From: a virus
DNA length: 40,900 nt
Reading direction: 5' to 3' (one strand)
Virus record (IMG/VR): IMGVR_UViG_3300033146_002590
Span: 1 to 40,900 of that record
This document shows positions 2,949 through 32,037 of the stretch, one piece after another. The notes beneath the pieces are model-generated. The model was not told where the DNA came from. It worked only from the letters and a program-made list of their open reading frames with translations, and searched no databases. Numbering within the stretch: the first letter of the stretch is position 1; each line of letters opens with the position of its first letter. A program made the position numbers and the translations under genes.

Positions 2949-4867
2949 TACAGTGCCTTTGTAGCTGTTAAAATAAACCACAAACTTCCACTCGCTACTA
3001 TCTGATAGAAATTGGCACTATCAAAATCATCAATGTAACATGTCCAACCGTCGCCTTTTGTAGCTGGGCTTGTAAATAATGCGTCTAATTCTGCGTCCGT
3101 TGGGGGATTGCTTACATTAGAAGAATACACTTTTTGCTGTCTATCCCCATTAATATAGTGAAATGTTGGAGCGTTTACTAATGTTGCCCCACTTATCGTA
3201 GCGTTATTTTCATTCCCGCTCGCATTATACCAGATTGTTGGAGTCATTTCACTTGGGCGGTATTTGGCTACTTCGCCGACCGCAGTAATCGATACATTAT
3301 CAAAACAAAAACAACCGCCAGCAGTTGTGGAGTACCCTTGAATATTAATTGTAGATGACGTGCTTTGCATTGTAACCAGTAAGGATATTGTTTGCCATGT
3401 ATCTTCAGTTGTCAGCACAGCATTACTAAACACATAATCACTACCAGCAAAAGATGGAGCCATACGAATTAATGTAAAATTATTACTACTGCTGGATAAA
3501 TACACATCGGCCTGTATTAAGTATCTCTGGCCGATTATAAAATCAGTAGAATAGGCGGCTAATAATCTTCCATCTGTATGGGTTCCGGGGGTTGTTCCTA
3601 CTATTACTTTTCCAACTTTTTCCCCCGCTGGCCCTGCATTGTAAATACATGTTCCGTTGCCGTCTGTTGAGACAGCCCAATCGTTTATACTTCCATTTGC
3701 AAAATTCCGATTATTTGAATCAGTAATATTATTTACAGTACTTGCGTTTGCATATTTAGCCTCTGTCTCTGCTCCGCTGTACCGAGCGTTAATTTCATCA
3801 GCTGAAAGGATACGGTTGTATAAGCGTTTTTCTGTAATCTGTCCATTATAAAAATTAGCCCCTGCGGTCGTTGAGCCGAGCCTTAATGCCCCTGCATTAT
3901 CTAAAGTTAAATTTGCAGAAGAAATGTCAACTGTTCCCACAATATCGCCATTTATGTAGGCTGTAGCGTTTCCGTCTCGGTCAAATATGACAAGTATCTT
4001 ATGTATTGCCCCAGTAGAAAAACAAGCCGTCCCAATTATTCCGGAAGCATCTGTTGTATTGTCATCGAATCTAATATATAAATCATCATCGACCATATAC
4101 AATCCATAACCGATACCTCCAGATTCTTTATTTATTAAATATTGTGTGCCTGAAATAGATGCGGGGATAACGCCAGATAAAAATATACTAAAATCATCGG
4201 TTCCGAAATCTAAATTACCATCATCTGCAATTGAAACATAATCATCAACCCCATCGAAACTGTAAGAACAGCCTGCCCCTCCAAGGTCAGTTATATTTTG
4301 GGTATTGGTGAGGTAATTTCCATTAAGAGTAATATTAGCACCGGCAATGCTTAGATTATCATTTCCGTTTTCATTATATTTAATTGAAACATCTTGATCA
4401 TTACCGAAATATAGTTTTTTGTCATCGGCAAGATAAACATCTCCTAATTCTGCCGAGGCACTGCCAATGTCAATAGCCCCTGAAACTGAGGGAGTAAGCC
4501 CACTAGATAAATATATGTCACCAATAAATAAAGAATCCCACGTAAACAAAGGCGAGCCAAGATCGTAAGTATCTGTGATCCTTGGCAAAGATGAAGCGGA
4601 TAAAGTTTTTCCGGTTGAATCTACAGCCCAAACTTTTACCCCATTAGAATCAAACATGCTAATATTCCAATTGAACCCACCAGACTGTATCCAGAAAACC
4701 AACGAAGCGGAATCAACATTAACTATTACATCGGTAGTAACGGCGTGTTCAATAAGTGAATTAATATAAGCATGTGAGGTACTGTTCCAATTTTTTGTAA
4801 ACTTAGTTTGTCCAAATGTAATCGTTGGCAATAAAAATGCCAATAATAATATAATTCTTTTTTTCAT
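2948..4867 (-). CDS. Exported LamG-domain fibre/adhesin-like protein
   Basis: A 639-residue protein with an N-terminal signal peptide (MKKRIILLLAFLLPTITFG, then Gln20). Residues ~110-190 have the repetitive Gly/Asn-rich pattern of phage fibre shafts. Residues ~200-365 are a LamG/concanavalin-like jelly roll (YSFDGVDDYV near its start, RLYNRILSADEI at its end). Residues ~385-535 look like a second beta-sandwich carbohydrate-binding module. It follows the tail-tip genes where receptor-binding proteins normally lie. Virion fibres assemble in the cytoplasm, so the signal peptide is odd: it could be a displayed adhesin or decoy instead. AAAGGA supports the start. Confidence 0.8.
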   Translation of the reverse strand: MKKRIILLLAFLLPTITFGQTKFTKNWNSTSHAYINSLIEHAVTTDVIVNVDSASLVFWIQSGGFNWNISMFDSNGVKVWAVDSTGKTLSASSLPRITDTYDLGSPLFTWDSLFIGDIYLSSGLTPSVSGAIDIGSASAELGDVYLADDKKLYFGNDQDVSIKYNENGNDNLSIAGANITLNGNYLTNTQNITDLGGAGCSYSFDGVDDYVSIADDGNLDFGTDDFSIFLSGVIPASISGTQYLINKESGGIGYGLYMVDDDLYIRFDDNTTDASGIIGTACFSTGAIHKILVIFDRDGNATAYINGDIVGTVDISSANLTLDNAGALRLGSTTAGANFYNGQITEKRLYNRILSADEINARYSGAETEAKYANASTVNNITDSNNRNFANGSINDWAVSTDGNGTCIYNAGPAGEKVGKVIVGTTPGTHTDGRLLAAYSTDFIIGQRYLIQADVYLSSSSNNFTLIRMAPSFAGSDYVFSNAVLTTEDTWQTISLLVTMQSTSSTINIQGYSTTAGGCFCFDNVSITAVGEVAKYRPSEMTPTIWYNASGNENNATISGATLVNAPTFHYINGDRQQKVYSSNVSNPPTDAELDALFTSPATKGDGWTCYIDDFDSANFYQIVASGSLWFILTATKAL

Positions 4868-4877
4868 AATTTATCCT

Positions 4878-6134
4878 TTAAATTGCCTCGACAAATCCAT
4901 CTTCATCGACCGGTTCCCATTTGCAATGCCAATGGATCTTACCGCTGGTTGCAACCCCACTATAAACTACCCTAATATAAGTATCTGCTCCGCTTTTTTG
5001 TGTTATAAAAAATGGTATTCTTGGCCTCCGGAAATTGGTGTTTTCGCCAACCCTGACTTGCGAAGAATTATATAAAGTGATCCCTGCTGTAGCTTTTTCA
5101 GTTTTTATAATTAATGACCCAACCCCGGCGTTACTTACGTCTGTACCGCCTCCACCATTATCTGTAATTTCTACTGCATTGGTGCCGTCATAAGCCTCAA
5201 GATAAATATCGTCAATATCGGCACTCAAAACAACATCAACATCTCCAAAAATATATTCTATTTGTACTGATCCAGTTATTTTAAATAGATTGTCAAAACT
5301 GCCACCACCACCGGCAAAAGTTGTAATATGATAAACTTCATCAGCATATTCAAAATTACTCCACACATTACTATTATCAACATCTACCCATCGGCCATCA
5401 TCAGCGCCTGAGCTACAATTTAAAATAGTCCAATTTTTAGAACCGGCAGAAACATAATAACTTGATGTTTCATGCCCTACAGAAGTGCAATTTGTTAAAA
5501 CACCAGTATCAACATTATTATTTATTTTGTATCCATAAGAAGCACCAATCCCAACAGTAGAACAATTATGCAATCTTGTCTGAGAGCCTTGGATATCAAA
5601 AGCTATTGATGTTTGATTACCGCATGCGTAATTATCAATTACCGCTCCCTGCCCAGTTATTCTCATTCCAGTTCCGCCGGCCAAAATTCTACCATCTGAA
5701 ATATTACAAAATGAGCCAGAAATTAATAATCCTATTTCTCCGATGGTTGGTGAAATTATATGATCTCCGGAAACCCTGCAATAATTAGCCGATACCGTTA
5801 AAGCTGTTCCAGAAGCCGGATCAATTATTGATCCTATTTCAAACCATAATTCACAATTTGCAACATTAAGATCAATTCCGGTTTCGGTATACGTTCCAGC
5901 CTTTATTTTGATAGCATCACCAAATGAAAGCAAAGATATTGCTGCCCCAATTGTAGCCATTGCCTTTTCTGGTTTTTCTCCGTTATTATTATCGTTTCCA
6001 TTGGTAGCATCTACATAATATACGTGCCCAGTGAATAACTTTATATGTCCCTTTATTCCGGCAATATCACCATTATGCCCATATTGGGCAAATGCTGTAC
6101 CGGCAAACAATATTAAAAAAAGTAATTTCTTCAT
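4878..6134 (-). CDS. Exported right-handed beta-helix (pectate-lyase-like) spike protein
   Basis: A 418-residue protein with a signal peptide (MKKLLFLILFAGTAFA, then Gln17). Residues ~39-65 contain YYVDATNGNDNNNG followed by ATIGAAI, the usual entry to parallel beta-helix polysaccharide-binding or lyase proteins. Residues ~65-260 show short repeating hydrophobic/Asn/Gly strands typical of helix rungs, and ~270-418 form a C-terminal beta-rich domain. This architecture is known for tail spikes and surface polysaccharide enzymes; no catalytic residues can be named. It is the second of three consecutive exported proteins, 3 bases after the preceding gene and 10 before the next. Confidence 0.78.
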   Translation of the reverse strand: MKKLLFLILFAGTAFAQYGHNGDIAGIKGHIKLFTGHVYYVDATNGNDNNNGEKPEKAMATIGAAISLLSFGDAIKIKAGTYTETGIDLNVANCELWFEIGSIIDPASGTALTVSANYCRVSGDHIISPTIGEIGLLISGSFCNISDGRILAGGTGMRITGQGAVIDNYACGNQTSIAFDIQGSQTRLHNCSTVGIGASYGYKINNNVDTGVLTNCTSVGHETSSYYVSAGSKNWTILNCSSGADDGRWVDVDNSNVWSNFEYADEVYHITTFAGGGGSFDNLFKITGSVQIEYIFGDVDVVLSADIDDIYLEAYDGTNAVEITDNGGGGTDVSNAGVGSLIIKTEKATAGITLYNSSQVRVGENTNFRRPRIPFFITQKSGADTYIRVVYSGVATSGKIHWHCKWEPVDEDGFVEAI

Positions 6135-6136
6135 AA

Positions 6137-6643
6137 TTATCGCCTCTTTATTGGGTTAGTATTATGCCCACTGCTAAAATTTTTATGTTTTATTCTTGCG
6201 AAAACAGCCGAACTTTTTTTATTTGTAGCTCCGCCGGTTATAACATATCTACCATTTAAATCGATAGGGATTATGTTGTCAGTAATATTATTTTTGACAA
6301 CAATAGAATCGGTAGTTATTGTCCAACTTTCCACCGTTTTCCAGCTATCGAAAAAGTTTTGATATGTTGTATCTGACCGTGTGCAAGTTTGAAACTCAAT
6401 CGTAATTGCGACTGAATCACTGGCAGAAGTATCAGCAGCCCAGAAGTCATTTCCCATAAACGGATAAATATCAAAAACCGCTGAGGTATCTGCTCCCGTT
6501 CCGGTAATTTTAAAAGTTCTTGTATCGCTGTTGGCATTTGCCTCATTTACAGATGATGGCCGAACTAATACGGGCACATGTTGGCCTTGCGGAAATACGT
6601 TCTCGACTACAAGCAAGCTTAAAATAATAAATAATTTCTTCAT
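6137..6643 (-). CDS. Exported protein of the fibre cluster
   Basis: A 168-residue protein with a signal peptide-like start (MKKLFIILSLLVVENVFP, then Gln19); the Pro at the presumed -1 position is unusual. The mature part is beta-rich with many Thr/Ser/Asp residues (DTRTFKITGTGADTSAVFD). No family is recognised. AAAGGAG lies 6 bases before the ATG. Tight packing with the beta-helix and LamG genes suggests the three act together as a receptor-binding or surface-exposed assembly. Confidence 0.65.
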   Translation of the reverse strand: MKKLFIILSLLVVENVFPQGQHVPVLVRPSSVNEANANSDTRTFKITGTGADTSAVFDIYPFMGNDFWAADTSASDSVAITIEFQTCTRSDTTYQNFFDSWKTVESWTITTDSIVVKNNITDNIIPIDLNGRYVITGGATNKKSSAVFARIKHKNFSSGHNTNPIKRR

Positions 6644-6653
6644 GATTTCTCCT

Positions 6654-6932
6654 TTATCCTAAATTAGGAATACTTTCAGGTGCTATTTGCCTACTATTAA
6701 TATTTTCCGTTCCCGTGCTTGTCGTTACATAAATATCATAGTGCATATTATCAGTTAATACATCAGTTTCAAAAATCCAACGTGAAGTATTGCCAAAGCA
6801 TTTTGTCATTGCGATCCTGCCGGCTGGATATGTTTGATTAATTGGCTGGAAATAAACCGCTGTAATCCCTGTTGTTTTGTCATTCCCATATTCATCTATA
6901 AATTGTTTGCCTTTGTGTTTTCCCCACGCCAT
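6654..6932 (-). CDS. Hypothetical tail-region protein
   Basis: A 92-residue protein without signal peptide, beginning MAWGKHKGKQFIDEYGNDKTTGITAVYFQP. It looks like a compact beta-rich domain; no family is recognised. AGGTG precedes the ATG. It lies between tail-tip genes and the exported fibre genes, so a role in fibre attachment is possible but not shown. Confidence 0.6.
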   Translation of the reverse strand: MAWGKHKGKQFIDEYGNDKTTGITAVYFQPINQTYPAGRIAMTKCFGNTSRWIFETDVLTDNMHYDIYVTTSTGTENINSRQIAPESIPNLG

Positions 6933-9630: not shown

Positions 9631-12600
9631 ATATCCCTATCTTTTTCTGATAGTTCTGATTTTGTTCAATCCTCGGCTGTGCAATATCATCAACAAAAGA
9701 TACTGTTGTAATGGGTGATGGATCATTTATTATTACCGTCGGAGGCGTAACATTAATATTATTTATAGCCGGGGATTCTTTTCTTTGATAACTATTGGCA
9801 GATGATGGCTCTCTGTAACTGCCATAAATTTCACCGCTCGGCTGGTTGAGCGTTTTATATCTTACTGAAACAATTACTGTTTTATCTTTAATCTCAGACA
9901 TGGATAATTTGACCCTCTCCAATGCCAGTTCCGCTTCAGATGTTTTCGTTTTTACTGTAACAGTTTTAGTGACCGGTAATTGAATTTTTGGTAATTCGTT
10001 ACCAAATTTATCAACATCTTTTAATATTGGTGTTATCTCTATTGTTATCCCAGTCCCCAGCTTGTCCCATTCATCTCTTAATGCTTCTAACGATTTTATA
10101 GCATCTTTGTATGCCTGTGAATTTGGGTTTAGTTGCCCTAAATATGCTCGTTGTGCATTTATGGCTGATAATATTTGTTCATCGATAGTCGTTTTTGACG
10201 GATCAAGATTAAAATAAAGCATTTCATTAATGGCTTTACTTATTGCTTTTGAATTTGATTCAAAAGTATTCCTATTCCCGAATAAAGCCGACTCCATTAA
10301 AGACCATTTAAAAACAACAGTCTCTAATGATTCTGTCAAATTATCAAACATCCCTCCTATTAACTCGATATCACCATTAAGAGAGTCGAGCCCTTCACCA
10401 AAATTTTTAATATCGTTTGTTGCCTTTACAAATCCATCCCCAATTAAATGATTTAATTTATCTTTAGCGCGCTCCATTAAATCAGTTAATTGTTCCCACG
10501 AGTCAGTAATCCCTAATATTTCATATAATGATTCTATTTTTTCCTTGGCCTGTCCCCATTCGTAAGAATTTTTCTTCAAATGTCCCATCAATTCAAAAAG
10601 TTTACTTATTTGTGCCCTAATGGAACTCTCAGAAATAATTCCAAATTCATTCATATATCCGCTTAATTTGCCCCATTCTTTTTTGCCGACACCTGCTAAA
10701 TTAACCCATGCCCCGCCAACATCATTAAGGGCCATGATATAAGATTCAAAGCTAAGTCGTTTTTTCTCCAAATCTTTATGAATTTTGTCTGAAGTTTTCT
10801 TCCAGTTTTTCAGGGCAGCAGAAACTATAGTCACCACTGACCCAACTACATCACCATCAATTAAATTTTGAGTAGCTGATAATAGCCCGTCTAAACTTTC
10901 CGATGTTAGCCCTATAGCTTCTGATATTTCACCAAAAGCATAAACTCCGTCTGTCATTTCCTTATTTACTTTTTTCTGGATAGCTTCAAGCTCTTCTTGG
11001 CTCTGAACAAGATTGTCAGTCTTTATTTTCTGCTCTTCCATTTTAACGGTAACTTTTTCCATCTCAGTTCTAATTTCTGGGAGAATTTTATTACCGGCCT
11101 CAAACTTGTCCATATAATTTTGTACTTCTTTTGCAGTTGGATCAATTTCTGTTTTCAGTTCTGTAATTTTATCTGTCAATCCTTTTGTAGCCAAAGCATC
11201 CCCTTTGGCCAAAGGTAACATTTTTTCATATTTTGCAATTAAATCTTTTACTGATTTAGTTGTTTTTATTCCAGCGTCAGAAAGTAATTTATTGTTATCT
11301 GCTAATTTCTTGGCCTTAAATGCTGCCCGGTCAAAATCAATTGCAACGGCAGGAATAATTTTCCCTGAAGAATTACTATAAGCTTTTAATTGTGCTTCTG
11401 TTTTGATTATGGCTTCCTTCACTGTTATCCATTTGCCGTTATATTTTACAAGTTCATCGCCACCCTTTTTCCTTAATTCTTCTAAATTAGTAACAGCATT
11501 TTTCATTAAAGTTTCTGCTTGCATCTGAACTTTATTTGTAAGCTCGATTGAATCATGCAATTGGTCTAATGATTCCCCCCAAACGTTCATTGCATCATTA
11601 ACTAATTTAACGGCTGTATATATTGCCGTTATTGCAATCAAAAATAATCCAAATGAAGCCCCAAGCGATACAACCGCAGCTTTTAACCCGGCAAAATATC
11701 CAGCCATTTTAAGCCCTATCAATGCAGCATTAACAGCTGTCCAGGTTTTCCAAACACCGATTAATAATCCAACCGGAACCAATATAGCGGCAATTGTTTT
11801 CAATATACTTTTAAGTAGCCCTGGATGTTTAGCAAATAATGAAGTAAGACTTTTAAGCATAGGAAGAACTTCATTACCCATTTCAACAAAAGCAACATGT
11901 AATTGATTTTTTATTATTGTCGCTTGTGCCGCAAGGGTTGAGTTTTGTTTATCAAAAGCTTTTTGCATTTCCTTTGTAGAATCTGAGACAGCTGTTAAGG
12001 TTTTTTTATATCCCGCCCAGTTATTTGTAATGCTCTTAATGGCCTTACTCGATCTTGTATTTAGCTTTAAATTGCGTAATGTTAAATCTCTTGTTTCGGT
12101 GCTTAATCCACTCAAGGATTTATTAAGATCGCCCATTATGTCCAGCATGCCCCGAAATTCACCTTTGTCATAAAGATTAACTCCGGCTTCTTTCCATTTA
12201 TCAGCATGTTCAGTCATTGAGTCGAACGCTCTTGCTAAGAACGTTGAGGCTTGCTGTGCCCCTATTCCAGATTTAGTAATATGTGCTAAAGTTCCAGCTA
12301 CTTCTTTAAATGGTATTTTTAAAGAGGCTGCGGCAGGAAGAACGGCACCCAAAGAACTTGCAAGCTGTTCATAAGTTAAAACTCCTTTTTTAACAGTAGC
12401 AAATTGGATGTCATATATATCATTTAGTTCTGATATATCTCCGCCGTAAGCATTAACTACAGACATCCCAGCATTAACGGCAGTTTCTACGGATGTTAAT
12501 CCGGCAGAAGCAGCCATTGCAGCAGACTTTAACGCAACTAATTCTTTACCGGCAGGGGCGCCAGCACTTACCAAATCATATAAACCTTTAGTCAATGATC

Positions 12601-13274: not shown

Positions 13275-13825
13275 TTTTTTACTGCTTCCCCTAATTCATC
13301 TACTTTATTCTGTAATTCTGTGAATTTGGTTGTGATGATTCCGGTCAGGTCAGTATTGTTTTTCATTAATTTAGTAAAAGCTTTTGCATCCTGTGAACCG
13401 GGTTCAAAAGCTCTTTTGTCTGTTTCCGGGTCAATCAAAAATGTAGGAATAATTTCTTGAATAGCATAAATTGTTGACATTTCACCGGCCAGTCTTTCGG
13501 CTTCTGTTTTAGGCGCAGACAGGGCATCTTCATCTAAAATACTTTTTACTTTTTCTTTCGCGTTTGGCTTGCCGGCAAACTGTTTTTTCAGTGCCTTTTC
13601 ACGATCCACAAGGTATTGATTCCATTTGGTCAAATTTGCATCAACCTTATCAAGCCCAAGAGCAGTATATTTCTTAATTAATAATATTTTGGTAATAGCA
13701 ATTTGCTCCTGTATTGCCATTAAGTCAATATTCCGTAATCTTACCGGTATTCCATAAACTTCAAAATCAACTACGATATGTCTTTCTTTTTCTGCATCCC
13801 GAAATTTCTGCATCATACTTTTCAT
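13271..13825 (-). CDS. Tail assembly chaperone G
   Basis: A 184-residue, charged, mainly helical protein encoded just before the tape measure gene, the standard place of the lambda gpG-type tail chaperone. Its last codons are GTA AAA AAC followed by TGA, which embeds the classic -1 slippery heptamer A AAA AAC (13274-13280). A slip there bypasses the stop and continues into the 12900-13274 frame. Two overlapping chaperones (G and GT) in a fixed ratio are the known outcome in siphoviruses. It follows the upstream gene after 2 bases. Confidence 0.8.
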   Translation of the reverse strand: MKSMMQKFRDAEKERHIVVDFEVYGIPVRLRNIDLMAIQEQIAITKILLIKKYTALGLDKVDANLTKWNQYLVDREKALKKQFAGKPNAKEKVKSILDEDALSAPKTEAERLAGEMSTIYAIQEIIPTFLIDPETDKRAFEPGSQDAKAFTKLMKNNTDLTGIITTKFTELQNKVDELGEAVKN

Positions 13826-28115: not shown

Positions 28116-28241
28116 TTAATGTATACTATTTAACAAAACTTCAAAACTATAAGCTAACACTAACATAAACACAAGCCCGCCTATAATTATTCCAATAGCA
28201 ATGTAGATTATTGCTGTTATTGATTGCGGTAATTTTTTCAT
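28116..28241 (-). CDS. Small single-pass membrane protein
   Basis: A 41-residue ORF beginning MKKLPQSITAIIYIA. Residues ~8-35 form one long hydrophobic helix rich in Ile, Gly and Leu. ACAGGGAGAAAATA just before the ATG is a good ribosome site. The N-terminal codons recur in the leader ORF at 27761-27808. Function unknown; an anti-phage-exclusion or membrane-signalling peptide is only a guess. Confidence 0.55.
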   Translation of the reverse strand: MKKLPQSITAIIYIAIGIIIGGLVFMLVLAYSFEVLLNSIH

Positions 28242-28263
28242 TATTTTCTCCCTGTTATTTGTT

Positions 28264-28290
28264 TTAGGGCAATATTACCCATCTTACCAT
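28264..28290 (-). CDS. Eight-codon ORF with strong ribosome site
   Basis: A short frame MVRWVILP preceded by TAGGGAGAAAGTA, part of the repeated leader at 28294-28324. It may be a leader peptide or a remnant left after loss of the gene once attached to this leader. Weak evidence. Confidence 0.2.
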   Translation of the reverse strand: MVRWVILP

Positions 28291-28293
28291 TAC

Positions 28294-28324
28294 TTTCTCC
28301 CTACTGGTTTATATTTCTTTGTTA
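28294..28324 (-). repeat. Cassette-leader repeat, copy 1
   Basis: On the minus strand this reads TAACAAAGAAATATAAACCA followed by GTAGGGAGAAA. Close copies lie at 28996-29022 and 30901-30932. Each copy carries a Shine-Dalgarno-like GGGAG or GGAG, so the repeat acts as, or contains, a translation leader for the next small gene. Confidence 0.7.
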
Positions 28325-28383
28325 TTGTTGCCCTGCACAGAATCGAACAGGTAAGTTTCAGGAGTGTTCTTAAGGATTCTCCT

Positions 28384-28931
28384 TTAATATTTTTTCAGTT
28401 CCAATTTTAAATATAGATTAACAGCCTCAATCCCAGGTTTCCTTGGCATCCGGCCTTTAAATTTAAGCTTCTCATAAAAATCAGCCCCTCTTATCTCTGC
28501 AAGTTTTTCTTCCCACTCGTCCCTTGAGCAAAAAATTTGTGATTTCCAGCAGTTAAAGAAATTCCATTATCTAAATCCCACCTTAATACTTTGTTTGCTC
28601 TGGTGATTATATGGTGAGCATTTAACGGTTGATCGGAGCTACCATTCACTTCACATTTATACCCTGCCCGGGCTTTAACTATTTTTGCCCAAAGTTCATC
28701 ATTTTCTTTTGCTATTAATTGTCGAGGAGTTTTGCCTACTTTTTTCCCTCCGACTTTAAAGACCTTGTGCTTGATTTTTAAAGTATGTTTTACCCTGAAA
28801 TTACTTTCACAGTGTGGGCAGGTTAAAGCGTATTCTTTCCGGTATTCTTTTATCTCTGTTATGGTTATCCTCATCTTACAATAAGGACAATTAATTGTTG
28901 CAGATGGCAATGTGTATTGGATTTTAATCAT
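28384..28931 (-). pseudogene. HNH endonuclease gene with a frameshift near its 3' end
   Basis: The upstream frame (28491-28931) encodes a zinc-finger N-terminus (two CxxC pairs: CPYCK and CPHC), then an HNH-like domain: CEVNGSS, NAHHIITRAN, DLDNGISLTAGNHK. After GNHK it meets a T6 run (28530-28535), goes out of frame and stops. In the -1 frame the sequence continues as FCSRDEWEEKLAEI…GADFYEKLK and on to a stop at 28384, the expected phage HNH C-terminus. One missing T would explain it; slippage is also possible. Homing or DNA nicking/packaging roles are known for such phage HNH proteins. Confidence 0.75.
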
Positions 28932-28995
28932 TTTTTTTTCTGACTTTCTTTAAGCAGCATCTTGTATATTAGACAACGAAAGCTTAATATCTGCA

Positions 28996-29022
28996 CTCCT
29001 ACTGGTTTATATTTCCTTGTTA
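28996..29022 (-). repeat. Cassette-leader repeat, copy 2
   Basis: A 27-base close copy of the leader at 28294-28324 and 30901-30932, with CAAGGA in place of CAAAGA. Downstream on the minus strand, a possible short GTG-initiated frame ends ATGA-style at the HNH start. The gap 28932-29120 otherwise holds only a TTGGCTT/AAGCCAA hairpin just after the radical SAM stop. Confidence 0.6.
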
Positions 29023-29120
29023 CCAAACATATTTCGCTAATGTTGGTTTTTCAAATGAAGTGAGTGCTAAATTAACCGTAATTAAAATAACCCCACCGCA
29101 CTTTTGGCTTTACAAGCCAA

Positions 29121-30158
29121 TTAGGTTTTGATAAAATATTCATCTAATTCTCTATTCCAACTTAATGACAATTCATTATTTGATAATAATTTCAAATTAT
29201 TTATTTTATTTTCTTCTGTTACCTTTCTCATCATTCCTGTATAATTACCAAAATTCCAATTTAATATTATTGGAGTTTTTAATGGTATCATTGTATTTTT
29301 AACAAACCCAAATTGTAAATCATTTTCAATTATACAACAATTATATTTATCGCTAAAATAATTTTGTATATCATTAAATAAACTTAATGTTTGTTCATCA
29401 GATAACCGATTTTCGTTAGCCCATTTAGTTTTATAATCAACAACAGAAAAACTATCAGTTTCTAATAATGGACTTATCTTAACGGAATTAGAATAATTTT
29501 TAACAGCATTATAAAAATCAATAATATCAATTAAATTATCGTTATTCCCTAAAAATACATTATTATTAATTCTAACATTTACTTTATTTTTATTTGCTGT
29601 TTCATAAATATTTTTGATGTCATTTACTGTTAAAATATATTTAGAATTAGTTATTTGTTTTTGTTTATCTATATCAATATTCATAAATGAAATATTAATA
29701 TTTGTAAGCCCGCAACTTAATACTTTCTCTCTATATTTTTTATTTTGTGCAAGTCTTATCCCGTTGGTTGTCATTACAATTTTATCTAATTTAAGTGTAG
29801 ATAACCACTCAATCATAGGTAATAACATTTTACTCATTGTTGGTTCCCCACCAAGTAATAAAACTTCCCTAACATTCATATTGTTAATTGCGAATAATAT
29901 CTTTTCTTTAAAAATTTCAATATCACCATTTAATTTGTTATGTATTAAATCCGCAATGCAGAAATTACAGTTTGCATTACAATAATCTGTTAATACTATA
30001 TCTAAATAAGGCTCTTTATTTAAAAGATATTTCTTCCCATTATTTTCAAATTCAGAATAAACATTATCTCCAAATTTAAAAACTTCAAATTCATTTATTT
30101 TAATTTTTTTTGCCATCGCTTGCTCAATTTCTTCTCTTAATCTACTTTGTTTTGTCAT
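29121..30158 (-). CDS. Radical SAM enzyme
   Basis: A 345-residue protein with the cluster motif C-x3-C-x2-C at Cys60, Cys64 and Cys67 (DYCNANCNFCIAD) and the SAM-binding GGEPT at 103-107, followed by a MTTNGIRLA-type strand. These are hallmarks of radical SAM enzymes, which cleave S-adenosylmethionine to start radical chemistry. No second Cys cluster (SPASM/twitch) is seen. The start at 30158 has GGGAG upstream; longer frames run into the attC-like palindrome. It differs from QueE, the radical SAM enzyme often carried by phages. Substrate unknown; a partner peptide nearby is not obvious. Confidence 0.85.
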   Translation of the reverse strand: MTKQSRLREEIEQAMAKKIKINEFEVFKFGDNVYSEFENNGKKYLLNKEPYLDIVLTDYCNANCNFCIADLIHNKLNGDIEIFKEKILFAINNMNVREVLLLGGEPTMSKMLLPMIEWLSTLKLDKIVMTTNGIRLAQNKKYREKVLSCGLTNINISFMNIDIDKQKQITNSKYILTVNDIKNIYETANKNKVNVRINNNVFLGNNDNLIDIIDFYNAVKNYSNSVKISPLLETDSFSVVDYKTKWANENRLSDEQTLSLFNDIQNYFSDKYNCCIIENDLQFGFVKNTMIPLKTPIILNWNFGNYTGMMRKVTEENKINNLKLLSNNELSLSWNRELDEYFIKT

Positions 30159-30194
30159 TTTATTAAAATCTCCCATCATTTTTAAATTTACGTT

Positions 30195-30289
30195 GCCTAA
30201 CACACGGTATAAACAAACCGCTATCAAGCATTATTATTAAATTTGAACTGTCTTATATGCGGTCAGTTCATACCGCAATCCGTTAGCGG
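30195..30289 (-). repeat. attC-like imperfect palindrome
   Basis: The ends read (plus strand) GCCTAAC … CGGTAT and ATACCG … GTTAGCG, giving paired outer (TAAC/GTTA) and inner (CGGTAT/ATACCG) boxes across 95 bases. On the minus strand the 3' end is GTTAGGC, a match to the integron core GTTRRRY. Internal GAACTG/CAGTTC pairing adds structure. It lies between two accessory genes, as attC sites lie between cassettes. Spacer lengths (3 and 6) are not quite canonical, so it is called attC-like only. Confidence 0.45.
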
Positions 30290-30293
30290 TAAT

Positions 30294-30623
30294 TTAAACC
30301 ACATTCCATTCAACTATGTGATTATAACTATCACCATTACCTTTTGCATCTAAGGCATAGTTTGTATTATCAACTCTTACTTCGGCATAACTACCATCTT
30401 CTAAATATATTTCTACACCATCAGGTAAGTGGTTTTCTAAGAAGTCAGTCATTGTAAAAGCATTGTCATTATGGTAATAGTCAGTAGTCCAAGAAAAACT
30501 ACCGCTAACATCGGCTATATGTAATGCCTTAGTTTCGTTGTTATCGGAAGTTTCATGTTCTTTTTGGCGTTCATCTGTTGTTACAAAATGTATAGTTGTT
30601 TCTATAATATCTTCAATTTTCAT
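30294..30623 (-). CDS. Small mosaic protein, shorter paralogue
   Basis: A 109-residue protein. Residues 1-17 (MKIEDIIETTIHFVTTD) and the following ~22 (ERQKEHETSDNNETKALH…) are identical to parts of the 30930-31367 product, but 42 residues between them are missing. Its C-terminal half (YYHNDNAFTMTDFLENHLP…) is unrelated. Function unknown; acidic and soluble. The ribosome site is weak (GAAAG). Confidence 0.6.
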   Translation of the reverse strand: MKIEDIIETTIHFVTTDERQKEHETSDNNETKALHIADVSGSFSWTTDYYHNDNAFTMTDFLENHLPDGVEIYLEDGSYAEVRVDNTNYALDAKGNGDSYNHIVEWNVV

Positions 30624-30658
30624 AATTCTATACTTTCTATTAAGTTAATATTTCTTTG
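30505..30658. repeat. Direct-repeat modules R2 and R1, joined copy
   Basis: R2 (30505-30574, 70 bases) and R1 (30572-30658, 87 bases) recur at 31123-31192 and 31316-31402. Here they are fused, overlapping by three bases; in the other copy 123 bases separate them. The fusion is in frame and creates the shorter paralogue by a 126-base deletion. Confidence 0.85.
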
Positions 30659-30896
30659 ATGTGGCAGTAAGAAACCACCCACTGCCGCATATTTTTCCAT
30701 CTCCGTCGTATGTTGGTTTTAACGTAACTTTCTTTTTAGCATTTAAAACTTTCATACCTTTTTTCAATTCTTTGATAGAATATTTATTTCCACATTCATC
30801 GGCAAGGGCGGAATACCCAAACCACACCGCATCAAAAATAGTTTTGTCCCATTTATCTAGCGCCTTTAAAATGTCGCCACATAACTCAGCTTTCAT
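30645..30896 (-). CDS. Small accessory protein
   Basis: An 83-residue protein (MKAELCGDILKALDKWDKTIFDA…) with a helical N-terminus and a Lys-rich C-terminal hairpin. The layout VWFGYSALADECGNKYSIKELKKGMKVL is helix-turn-helix-like and resembles a small winged helix, but this is not certain. AATAGGGAG of leader copy 3 provides the ribosome site. No family recognised. Confidence 0.55.
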   Translation of the reverse strand: MKAELCGDILKALDKWDKTIFDAVWFGYSALADECGNKYSIKELKKGMKVLNAKKKVTLKPTYDGDGKICGSGWFLTATSKKY

Positions 30897-30900
30897 CTGT

Positions 30901-30932
30901 TTTTCTCCCTATTGGTTTATATTTCTTTGTTA
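30901..30932 (-). repeat. Cassette-leader repeat, copy 3
   Basis: The copy begins at the TAA stop of the upstream gene and ends just before the ATG of the 30645-30896 gene, so one small gene is joined to the next through this shared leader. Compare 28294-28324 and 28996-29022. Confidence 0.7.
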
Positions 30933-31367
30933 GCCACAATAATACTCATATTCAAATTCTCCAAAGAAAAATTTGTAATTATATTCTATAGCTTCATCTT
31001 TTGTTTTAAATTTCATAGCATCTTTTTTGCTGTCTGTTAGTGTCATTCCAAATTTTTCTTTTTGCTTAAAATATACTTTTACAACTTCATTTCTCGTTAG
31101 CAATACAGAACAATTACTATGCCTAACATCGGCTATATGTAATGCCTTAGTTTCGTTGTTATCGGAAGTTTCATGTTCTTTTTGGCGTTCATTTGCCAAC
31201 GCACTTTGAAACATCGCTTCCAATTCCTTACAATCATACTCGGGTTCATCACTCTCACCCATTCTTACAGTCCAACTATCTGCCGAATATCTTGTATATT
31301 CATTCCACTCATCTGCATCTGTTGTTACAAAATGTATAGTTGTTTCTATAATATCTTCAATTTTCAT
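30930..31367 (-). CDS. Small mosaic protein, longer paralogue
   Basis: A 145-residue protein: shared N-terminus (1-17), an acidic middle (ADEWNEYTRYSADSW … ELEAMFQSALAN), the shared ERQKEHETSDNNETKALHIADV segment, and a distinct basic C-terminus ending FGEFEYEYYCG. The DEW/Cys/ALA-x-E pattern of the middle resembles the 31389-31598 product. Role unknown. Confidence 0.6.
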   Translation of the reverse strand: MKIEDIIETTIHFVTTDADEWNEYTRYSADSWTVRMGESDEPEYDCKELEAMFQSALANERQKEHETSDNNETKALHIADVRHSNCSVLLTRNEVVKVYFKQKEKFGMTLTDSKKDAMKFKTKDEAIEYNYKFFFGEFEYEYYCG

Positions 31368-31402
31368 AATTCTATACTTTCTATTAAGTTAATATTTCTT
31401 TG
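31123..31402. repeat. Direct-repeat modules R2 and R1, separated copy
   Basis: R2 at 31123-31192 and R1 at 31316-31402 match the fused copy at 30505-30658. R1 covers the 5' end of the gene and its upstream leader; its edge abuts the short GCTATATGTAATGCCTT repeat (31402-31418) shared by the three KALHIA genes. Confidence 0.85.
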
Positions 31403-31598
31403 CTATATGTAATGCCTTGCTGTCGTGCTGTTTGGTAGTTTCGGAGCGTTCTTGCCGTTCGCTTAGTACATTTTCAACGCATAATCTTGCGAAATCTTGA
31501 CAATCTGCACTATCAAATAATAATTGATTGCTGTCGTTTACGTGTGAATGTCCTCGCCATTCTCTATACCATTCATCTAATTTTGCTATAATATTCAT
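31389..31598 (-). CDS. Small KALHIA-type accessory protein
   Basis: A 69-residue protein (MNIIAKLDEWYREWRGHSHV…), with an acidic middle and ending SETTKQHDSKALHIAKKY. The KALHIA end matches the internal segment of the two mosaic paralogues, also at DNA level (GCTATATGTAATGCCTT). It may be the ancestral short form. Function unknown. The 31599-31692 gap holds TAACGGATTACGG, a partial match to the attC-like site at 30195-30289, and a GTGTAGT/ACTACAC hairpin. Confidence 0.55.
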   Translation of the reverse strand: MNIIAKLDEWYREWRGHSHVNDSNQLLFDSADCQDFARLCVENVLSERQERSETTKQHDSKALHIAKKY

Positions 31599-31692
31599 CG
31601 CTCACTAATTTAAGTTAATAATTCAAAGTTTAGTGTAGTTTAATCGGCACTACACATAGCCGTAATCCGTTACAAGCCATTTAATAAATCCT

Positions 31693-32037
31693 TTATTTTA
31701 TTTCTACAGTGTCAGACGGTAAACTTTCACCAGCCTGATTAAATGCGGTGACGTAATATTTTCTCGTTACTGGCCAACTTGCCCCTGTTTCAGTGCCGAC
31801 TAGTGGAACTACTTGATAAATATTGTAACCGTCGGCTCTTGGATTTGCGTCCCATGTTAAAATATATTCTTTTTTTGATAACTTAGACAGTAAAATGTTA
31901 AAGCTGTCTATTTTTGTTTTTTGAACAATCAGCAAAGAATCAATCTTTTGTAATTGTTGCTTTATGCTTGTATCATCATAAAGCGGGCTGCAACTTATCA
32001 ATATAGTCAATAATAATAAAATAAGTTTACTTTTCAT
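31693..32037 (-). CDS. Small lipoprotein with fibronectin type III-like domain
   Basis: A 114-residue protein. Residues 1-16 form a type II signal peptide with lipobox LISC; Cys16 would be lipidated. Residues ~24-53 are a helical linker. Residues ~58-114 look like an FN3 domain (ILTWDANPRADGYNIYQV … YYVTAFNQAGESLPSDTVEI). It lies next to the helicase gene. Phage-coded lipoproteins of this size can block superinfection by binding the receptor (as Llp of T5), which is an inference here. Confidence 0.75.
   Translation of the reverse strand: MKSKLILLLLTILISCSPLYDDTSIKQQLQKIDSLLIVQKTKIDSFNILLSKLSKKEYILTWDANPRADGYNIYQVVPLVGTETGASWPVTRKYYVTAFNQAGESLPSDTVEIK

Follow-up and report, generated by a model that had tools for sequence, protein, structure and literature searches.

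Integron-type gene cassettes, probably without their recombinase, in a viral genome and a candidate integron lineage with Xer-like recombinases in its relatives

Integrons, which comprise an integrase (IntI), an attI site and attC sites, carry an array of gene cassettes beside a tyrosine recombinase, with attI at the recombinase end. Their folded sites hold a GTT/AAC core, the two ends of a cassette are complementary, and cassettes are gained at attI and lost between sites. An insert in IntI is regarded as essential for integron function in the account given in PMC8138268. Qi et al. 2023 (PMC9892861) describe phages, among them a Polaribacter phage, with attC sites and methyltransferase cassettes, as well as complete integrons with integron-integrases in temperate phages or prophages, two derived from Vibrio chromosomal integrons and one from class 1 integrons on P1. 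For the Bacteroidetes proper, the IntegronFinder 2.0 report (PMC9024848) gives one complete integron, in Salinibacter ruber. Here we describe a block of small genes at positions 28,116 to 32,037 of IMG/VR virus record IMGVR_UViG_3300033146_002590, a stretch of 40,900 nucleotides hereafter called the window. This block is, with high probability, a small phage-borne cluster of integron-type gene cassettes that lacks a recombinase, and the host of the phage is probably a member of the Bacteroidota.

Comparison with relatives makes it likely, in our judgement, that Bacteroidota phages hold a separate integron lineage, with relatives in Bacteroidia chromosomes and on at least one plasmid. Its recombinase would be Xer-like and free of the IntI insert, and its sites would double as translation starts, so that every gene, once captured, is supplied with a start codon and a tag by its own site and with a stop by the following one. 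Within a single host population, phages would thereby keep a store of anti-restriction genes, adding some and dropping others. Judged from sequence, the system would work as an integron, but its recombinases do not qualify as IntI.

The system shares with integrons the array, attI, site and cassette properties listed above. It differs from them in the missing insert, in the rarity of the GTTRRRY box, in genes that read towards attI and in sites that often hold the start codon of the gene. Unlike the integrons of Qi et al., it includes viral records that own an Xer-like recombinase and an attI. Treponema integrons, as presented in PMC3607928, likewise have recombinase and cassette genes on one strand, but there intI is transcribed toward attI, whereas in the present system it is the cassette genes that point to attI and the recombinase that points away from it. 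Recombination sites bearing translation signals are also described in PMC8876359, for ORF-11 of attI1 and for fused cassettes; those are coupled short open reading frames (ORFs) or occasional fusions, whereas here the cassette protein usually starts in the site and is tagged. A literature search, made without most subscription papers and bioRxiv, found no phage-own integron with an Xer-like recombinase and no sites that hold gene starts. The system may have been overlooked because its recombinase and sites fit neither IntI nor attC models.

The site family and its members in the window

Each site consists of two half-sites, TAAC-spacer-GGCTAT.. and ..ATAGCC-GAT-GTTA. The left-arm pattern matches 39 viral contigs, many of which are unrelated genes and a subset of which have the same architecture; only contigs with matching context were used. 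The right-arm pattern matches 47 viral contigs, nearly all of which read through the arm in one frame (..IADV) into different proteins, L085 being the exception. A covariance model, R1, was prepared from 26 aligned complete elements of ~130 nucleotides each from viral relatives. These 26 elements have an attC-like architecture of paired R and L boxes and a hairpin, with a stem that is 95.8% paired and whose covariation score exceeds that of every one of 500 shuffles. Of 248 elements, 232 fold more stably on the coding strand, and the G.T wobbles of the stem fall on this strand. The GTT core is kept, and the full GTTRRRY sequence of the R box occurs in 18 of 248 elements at the 3' box and in 21 of 248 at the 5' box on the other strand.

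R1 yields two significant matches in the window. These and the associated cassette parts are as follows.

30195-30289, - strand: attC-like site with both arms, next box GTTAGGC (R1 36.2 bits, E 2.9e-5)
31645-31675, - strand: left arm of a cassette site, TAACGGATTACGGCTATGTGTAGTGCCG (R1 match 31675-31546, 36.9 bits, E 2e-5)
31124-31146, - strand: right arm GGCATTACATATAGCCGATGTTA, within ORF145 and translated ALHIADV
30506-30528, - strand: second right arm, within ORF109 and translated ALHIADV (R1 30503-30628, just 18.2 bits, E 0.2)
30282-30509, - strand: one complete cassette body, GTTAGCGGTA...TACCGCTAAC, whose ends are a perfect 10-nucleotide complement

An earlier sequence-only reading had proposed that this block holds gene cassettes separated by attC-like sites, in a region where the phage acquires cargo. 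Its core proposal gains support from the R1 matches and the complementary cassette ends in the window, and from the arrays and Freya isolates described below. The attC-like site that it named at 30195-30289 is genuine: folded on the coding strand it reads GCTAAC-GGATTG-CGGTATGAACTGACCGC...GCGGTTTGTTTATACCG-TGT-GTTAGGC, with TAAC pairing with GTTA and CGGTATGAACTGACCGC with GCGGTTTGTTTATACCG. The z-scores of its DNA fold are -2.8 for the coding (-) strand and -2.65 for the + strand. The second half-site of that reading, TAACGGATT near 31675, also holds up as the left arm TAACGGATTACGGCTATGTGTAGTGCCG, which recurs in many viral contigs. Overlooked at the time were two right arms, GGCATTACATATAGCCGATGTTAG, inside ORF145 (31146-31124) and ORF109 (30528-30506) and translated KALHIADV; for the latter no left arm of its own was seen, and the tag region there is duplicated. 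The complete cassette body is that of ORF109 and lies between two window sites. With two significant R1 sites and no PF00589 match in the record, in agreement with the earlier statement that no integrase is present, the window corresponds to a cluster of attC sites lacking integron-integrases (CALIN; at least two sites, no integrase nearby). The earlier suggestion that host enzymes made the insertions has to be weighed against the recombinases that relatives encode beside their arrays and against the scarcity of classical IntI, which passes the curated cut-off in just 1 of 198 Bacteroidia genomes.

It is scarcely conceivable that these are chance repeats in an AT-rich phage region with no system behind them. 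Such an explanation can point to a leader and a hairpin after the radical SAM gene that are unrelated to the sites (see below), and to there being just two significant R1 matches in the window. The E-values of these two matches and the 10/10 complementary cassette ends argue against it, and sequence identity with a large family already contradicts chance.

Arrays, attI and adjacent recombinases in viral relatives

R1 sites form arrays in relatives, for example ~14 elements within 4.5 kb (L065) of a viral record of 265,845 bp. Complementary ends are what would be predicted of circular cassettes exchanged at the box. When neighbours less than 1 kb apart were counted, with repeated pairs entered once, the four variable bases of the cassette 5' box were the complement of those of the 3' box in 44 of 70 cases (permuted mean 4.4, maximum 13, 10,000 permutations). 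Within single elements, the two boxes agree in 5 of 136. This first box count used 136 of 205 R1 rows, with E up to 0.016; excluded were rows on the strand opposite to a stronger match (L079, L080, L015, L066), rows cut by a contig end (L051, L064) and the rows L057:3903, L077:2783, L074:3510, L043:9589 and L059:3360. A second set, found via the recombinase, has complementary ends in 55 of 78 cases (permuted mean 7.5, maximum 17). Complementary cassette ends, as known from integrons, are therefore present in relatives as well as in the window.

PF00589 was detected in 9 of 50 records searched, and in seven of these nine (L100-L106) the recombinase immediately follows the array and shares its orientation; L107 and L108 depart from this pattern. 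A search with six array-adjacent recombinases gave 125 relatives in viral contigs, and 80 of these 125 loci were examined. Beside 33 of the 80 recombinases lie 124 R1 sites, every one of them upstream of the recombinase and on its strand. A terminase was found in 7 of 26 records with the recombinase (one terminase family tried). In the 265,845-bp viral record G024, which is probably circular, an array at one record end resumes at the other, with the recombinase at the end of the array (L102, L113).

A motif taken as attI, NNNTAACTAttATATATA, is located ~54 nucleotides ahead of the recombinase (median, strict matches). Its loose form occurs at 72 of 75 loci versus 41 of 1461 control windows, and its strict form at 47 of 75 loci versus none of 1461. 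The 10-mers flanking attI comprise 36 different sequences to the left and just 5 to the right, which indicates that the array ends at a fixed site. Relatives, including Polaribacter phage Freya, thus carry an attI beside the recombinase gene. Viewed on the opposite strand, the diverging recombinase, attI and cassettes stand in the usual integron order, but the genes point the other way.

The recombinases score 125-158 bits against the IntI model TIGR02249, versus a cut-off of 265, and both this model and the structure 2A3V match them in two stretches around the IntI insert. The best family is the XerA type (NF040815), at 164-206 bits and under its curated cut-off of 220, and the best PDB match is 4a8e. 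XerA itself is described in PMC8138268 as a chromosome-dimer resolution enzyme, not a cassette recombinase. IntI1 and a Bacteroidia IntI fall in a clade apart from the phage recombinases in a tree whose deep branches are weakly supported (phage group 87/72).

Cassette exchange, site-encoded starts and distribution

Repeated isolation on a single host strain yielded Polaribacter phage Freya (Bartlau et al. 2021, PMC8776804); the word integron is absent from the main text of that report. Freya encodes a relative of the recombinase with 35.8% identity. Seven of ten isolates (1, 2, 5, 6, 8, 9 and 10) were compared. From the last shared gene to the recombinase, the seven are identical apart from whole cassettes. 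Freya_1 has zero cassettes, Freya_2 has 842 additional nucleotides and Freya_5 has 1744; Freya_6 is Freya_5 plus a different cassette of ~470 nucleotides. Freya_9 corresponds to Freya_5 plus 2891 nucleotides, Freya_10 to Freya_9 plus 307, and Freya_8 to Freya_10 minus an internal 902. All borders are AAC| or attI AAC|ACCCCTATAACA, and those at AAC| coincide with the end of identity, such that whole cassettes differ precisely among these isolates. Complementary ends of 9-10 nucleotides are present in 4 of 6 Freya segments. Growth beside the recombinase together with internal loss would be integron behaviour; nested stepwise loss would look alike.

We propose that new cassettes enter at attI, next to the recombinase, and that recombination between sites removes cassettes. 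The adjacent recombinase would perform the exchange, with the folded coding strand as its substrate. The attI side of the array corresponds to the 3' end of the genes, which suggests that crossover occurs at TAA^C and that the site moves with the gene downstream of it. A first mechanism, in which crossover at the translated GTTA shuffles tags among bodies, was dropped once the attI side of the array had been seen. The TAA of the next site often serves as the stop codon of the cassette gene. On this reading the window retains cassettes, with one tag duplicated and the recombinase absent from the record. If a recombinase without the IntI insert acts on folded sites, this would bear on the view of the insert as essential. 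Small accessory genes are numerous in phage genomes, and their gain and loss are rarely observed as they happen. In this system the unit of exchange and its borders, the adjacent recombinase and near-isogenic Freya isolates are all known, which makes the mechanism directly testable.

The sites overlap with the genes that follow them. Of 246 distinct elements, 155 have an ORF of at least 40 amino acids that begins within the loop and runs across the right box (frames 120:5:30), compared with 17 of 246 on the reverse strand and 335 of 1230 random same-strand windows. About two thirds of sites hold a start codon in the loop and are read through at the right arm, and cassette proteins therefore bear a site-encoded N-terminal tag (..NDFIADV, ..ALHIADV). 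Cassette bodies often stop at the TAA of the next site's TAAC. In principle, such sites could be translated RNA hairpins at the start of phage accessory genes, with mosaicism arising from homologous recombination between copies. A stem that tolerates G.U on the mRNA strand, the start codon within the loop and the long identical repeats in the window would fit. We consider this explanation very unlikely, given the complementary ends of the same cassette, the fixed attI, the Freya borders at AAC|, where identity stops, and the adjacency of the recombinase.

The 100 longest of the 155 cassette ORFs were scanned for cargo. Few of these proteins are known to Pfam (N6_N4_Mtase 7, Lar 3, Mom 1, D12 1, Dam 1, UPF0020 1, DUF551 1), and nearly all that are known relate to DNA modification or restriction alleviation. 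PHROGs agree with Pfam and add matches to pyrophosphatase and acyl carrier protein. The recognised cargo, mostly anti-restriction, points to a putative role in counter-defence.

Named phages with the system are Cellulophaga phi17:1 and phi4:1 and Polaribacter Freya. Beyond viruses, 39 of 198 Bacteroidia genomes contain R1 sites, and an initial description as a virus-only element, based on nine matches in genome contigs, was wrong. In six chromosomal regions of Bacteroidia with R1 arrays (among L226-L232), picked for a recombinase match on the same contig, an Xer-like recombinase, mostly with an N-terminal extension, is situated within ~10 kb of the sites and is convergent with them in 5 of 6. 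A plasmid of Flagellimonas marinaquae (NZ_CP092416) has, at 3889-6801, a pair of R1 sites (53.8 and 33.6 bits) upstream of xerA that surround a dihydrofolate reductase-like gene and erm(F); resistance genes may also be carried by the system.

The block could alternatively be an ordinary CALIN, namely cassettes of a classical IntI chromosomal integron acquired from the host and moved by host IntI. Phage CALINs are known, and IntI1 recombined 5 of 6 tested phage attC sites, including one of two from P12002L (Qi et al. 2023, PMC9892861). P12002L has a marginal R1 match (E 0.037), possibly an attC site tested in that study, by a methyltransferase gene framed by GTTAGGCAC and GTGCCTAAC. The R1 sites in Bacteroidia genomes are also in keeping with this origin. 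However, IntI exceeds the curated cut-off in just 1 of the 198 genomes, the phage recombinases adjoining arrays are not IntI, GTTRRRY is present in just 18 of 248 boxes, and the genes are directed towards attI. We therefore regard an ordinary CALIN as improbable.

Several observations weigh against a separate phage lineage or against the assignment of the window to it. The frequency of R1 sites in Bacteroidia genomes means that the source may be chromosomal. R1 sites lie beside just 33 of the 80 recombinases, or 32 of the 63 that have 1 kb or more of upstream sequence. R1 misses the Freya sites, and the system is therefore wider than the R1 model; complementary ends are just 6 nucleotides long in 2 of 6 Freya segments. 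Two covariation measures that count pairs or types stay within shuffles for the 26 elements. In the window, R1 wrongly joins the 31675 left arm to a right arm of poor quality at 31546, although GGCATTACATATAGCCGATGTTA at 31146-31124 pairs better. The duplex with the latter, at -19.1 kcal/mol, ranks first among 8172 tiles, but its strength is not unique, since -18.7 kcal/mol is reached by an unrelated tile at 13555-13595. Equal tags on different bodies, in the window and in L066/L086, are no simple consequence of crossover at TAA^C. The 40.9-kb record, which is possibly a fragment, lacks PF00589, and no swap is shown at the window locus itself, for which the only relatives found by terminase, L002 and L003, are too distant.

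Gene layout and other features of the window

All genes of the block are on the - strand. A lipoprotein-like gene (31693-32037) bounds it at one side and a C5 methyltransferase gene at the other; the genes in between are small ORFs that lack known relatives, together with a radical SAM gene and an HNH gene.

31389-31598, - strand: ORF69, which begins within the first site's long loop; its end is a degenerate tag copy, ..SKALHIAKKY
30930-31367, - strand: ORF145, site-encoded tag MKIEDI..ALHIADV plus body RHSNCSV..
30645-30896, - strand: ORF83, between two tagged ORFs, with a private leader ahead of its start
30294-30623, - strand: ORF109, duplicated tag plus body SGSFSWTTDYY..WNVV
29121-30179, - strand: radical SAM gene, next after the attC-like site (Pfam PF04055, 7e-13)

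The tag and leader stretches of ORF145 and ORF109 are duplicated within 30491-31402 at 100% identity (87 and 59 nucleotides). They diverge exactly after the site, at GTTA, into unrelated bodies. The ORF145 tag equals the ORF109 tag plus an extra stretch, and the degenerate tag copy in ORF69 is a third copy of this repeat (D1), 71% identical. The ORF145 body has GTTAGGC at its start and GGCTAAC at its end, with 3 of 4 variable bases complementary. For the radical SAM gene no matching 3' box was found, and its status as a proven cassette is unsupported; its 74% relative in L043 stands outside any cassette.

The sequence-only reading had counted a repeated leader, TAACAAAGAAATATAAACCA, and a palindrome among the recombination-like elements. 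All three leader copies are present on the - strand (30932-30913, 29022-29003 with one mismatch, and 28324-28305). Just four other viral contigs hold TAACAARGAAATATAAACCA, in surroundings unlike those of the window that we judge to be chance, and for this reason the leader appears private to this phage rather than part of the cassette system. This rarity and the differing contexts rule it out as a recombination site. It is best read as a private 5' leader (5' untranslated region) with the Shine-Dalgarno-like AGGGAGAAA, outside any wider recombination site. The palindrome after the radical SAM gene (TTGGCTTgtaAAGCCAA, ~29100) also exists, as a plain hairpin with no attC features.

No attI was seen in the window. 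A phage BLAST search of the block gave weak matches only, the best one in a ParB region, and an Rfam search gave a single snoRNA match below threshold, which was discarded. A weak R1 match on the opposite strand (11600-11714, +; 21.0 bits, E 0.051), in the tape-measure region, is probably due to chance. The HNH-like protein (28491-28931, - strand) has a zinc-ribbon stretch at its N-terminus, and this ribbon part weakly resembles a Lar-like restriction alleviation family.

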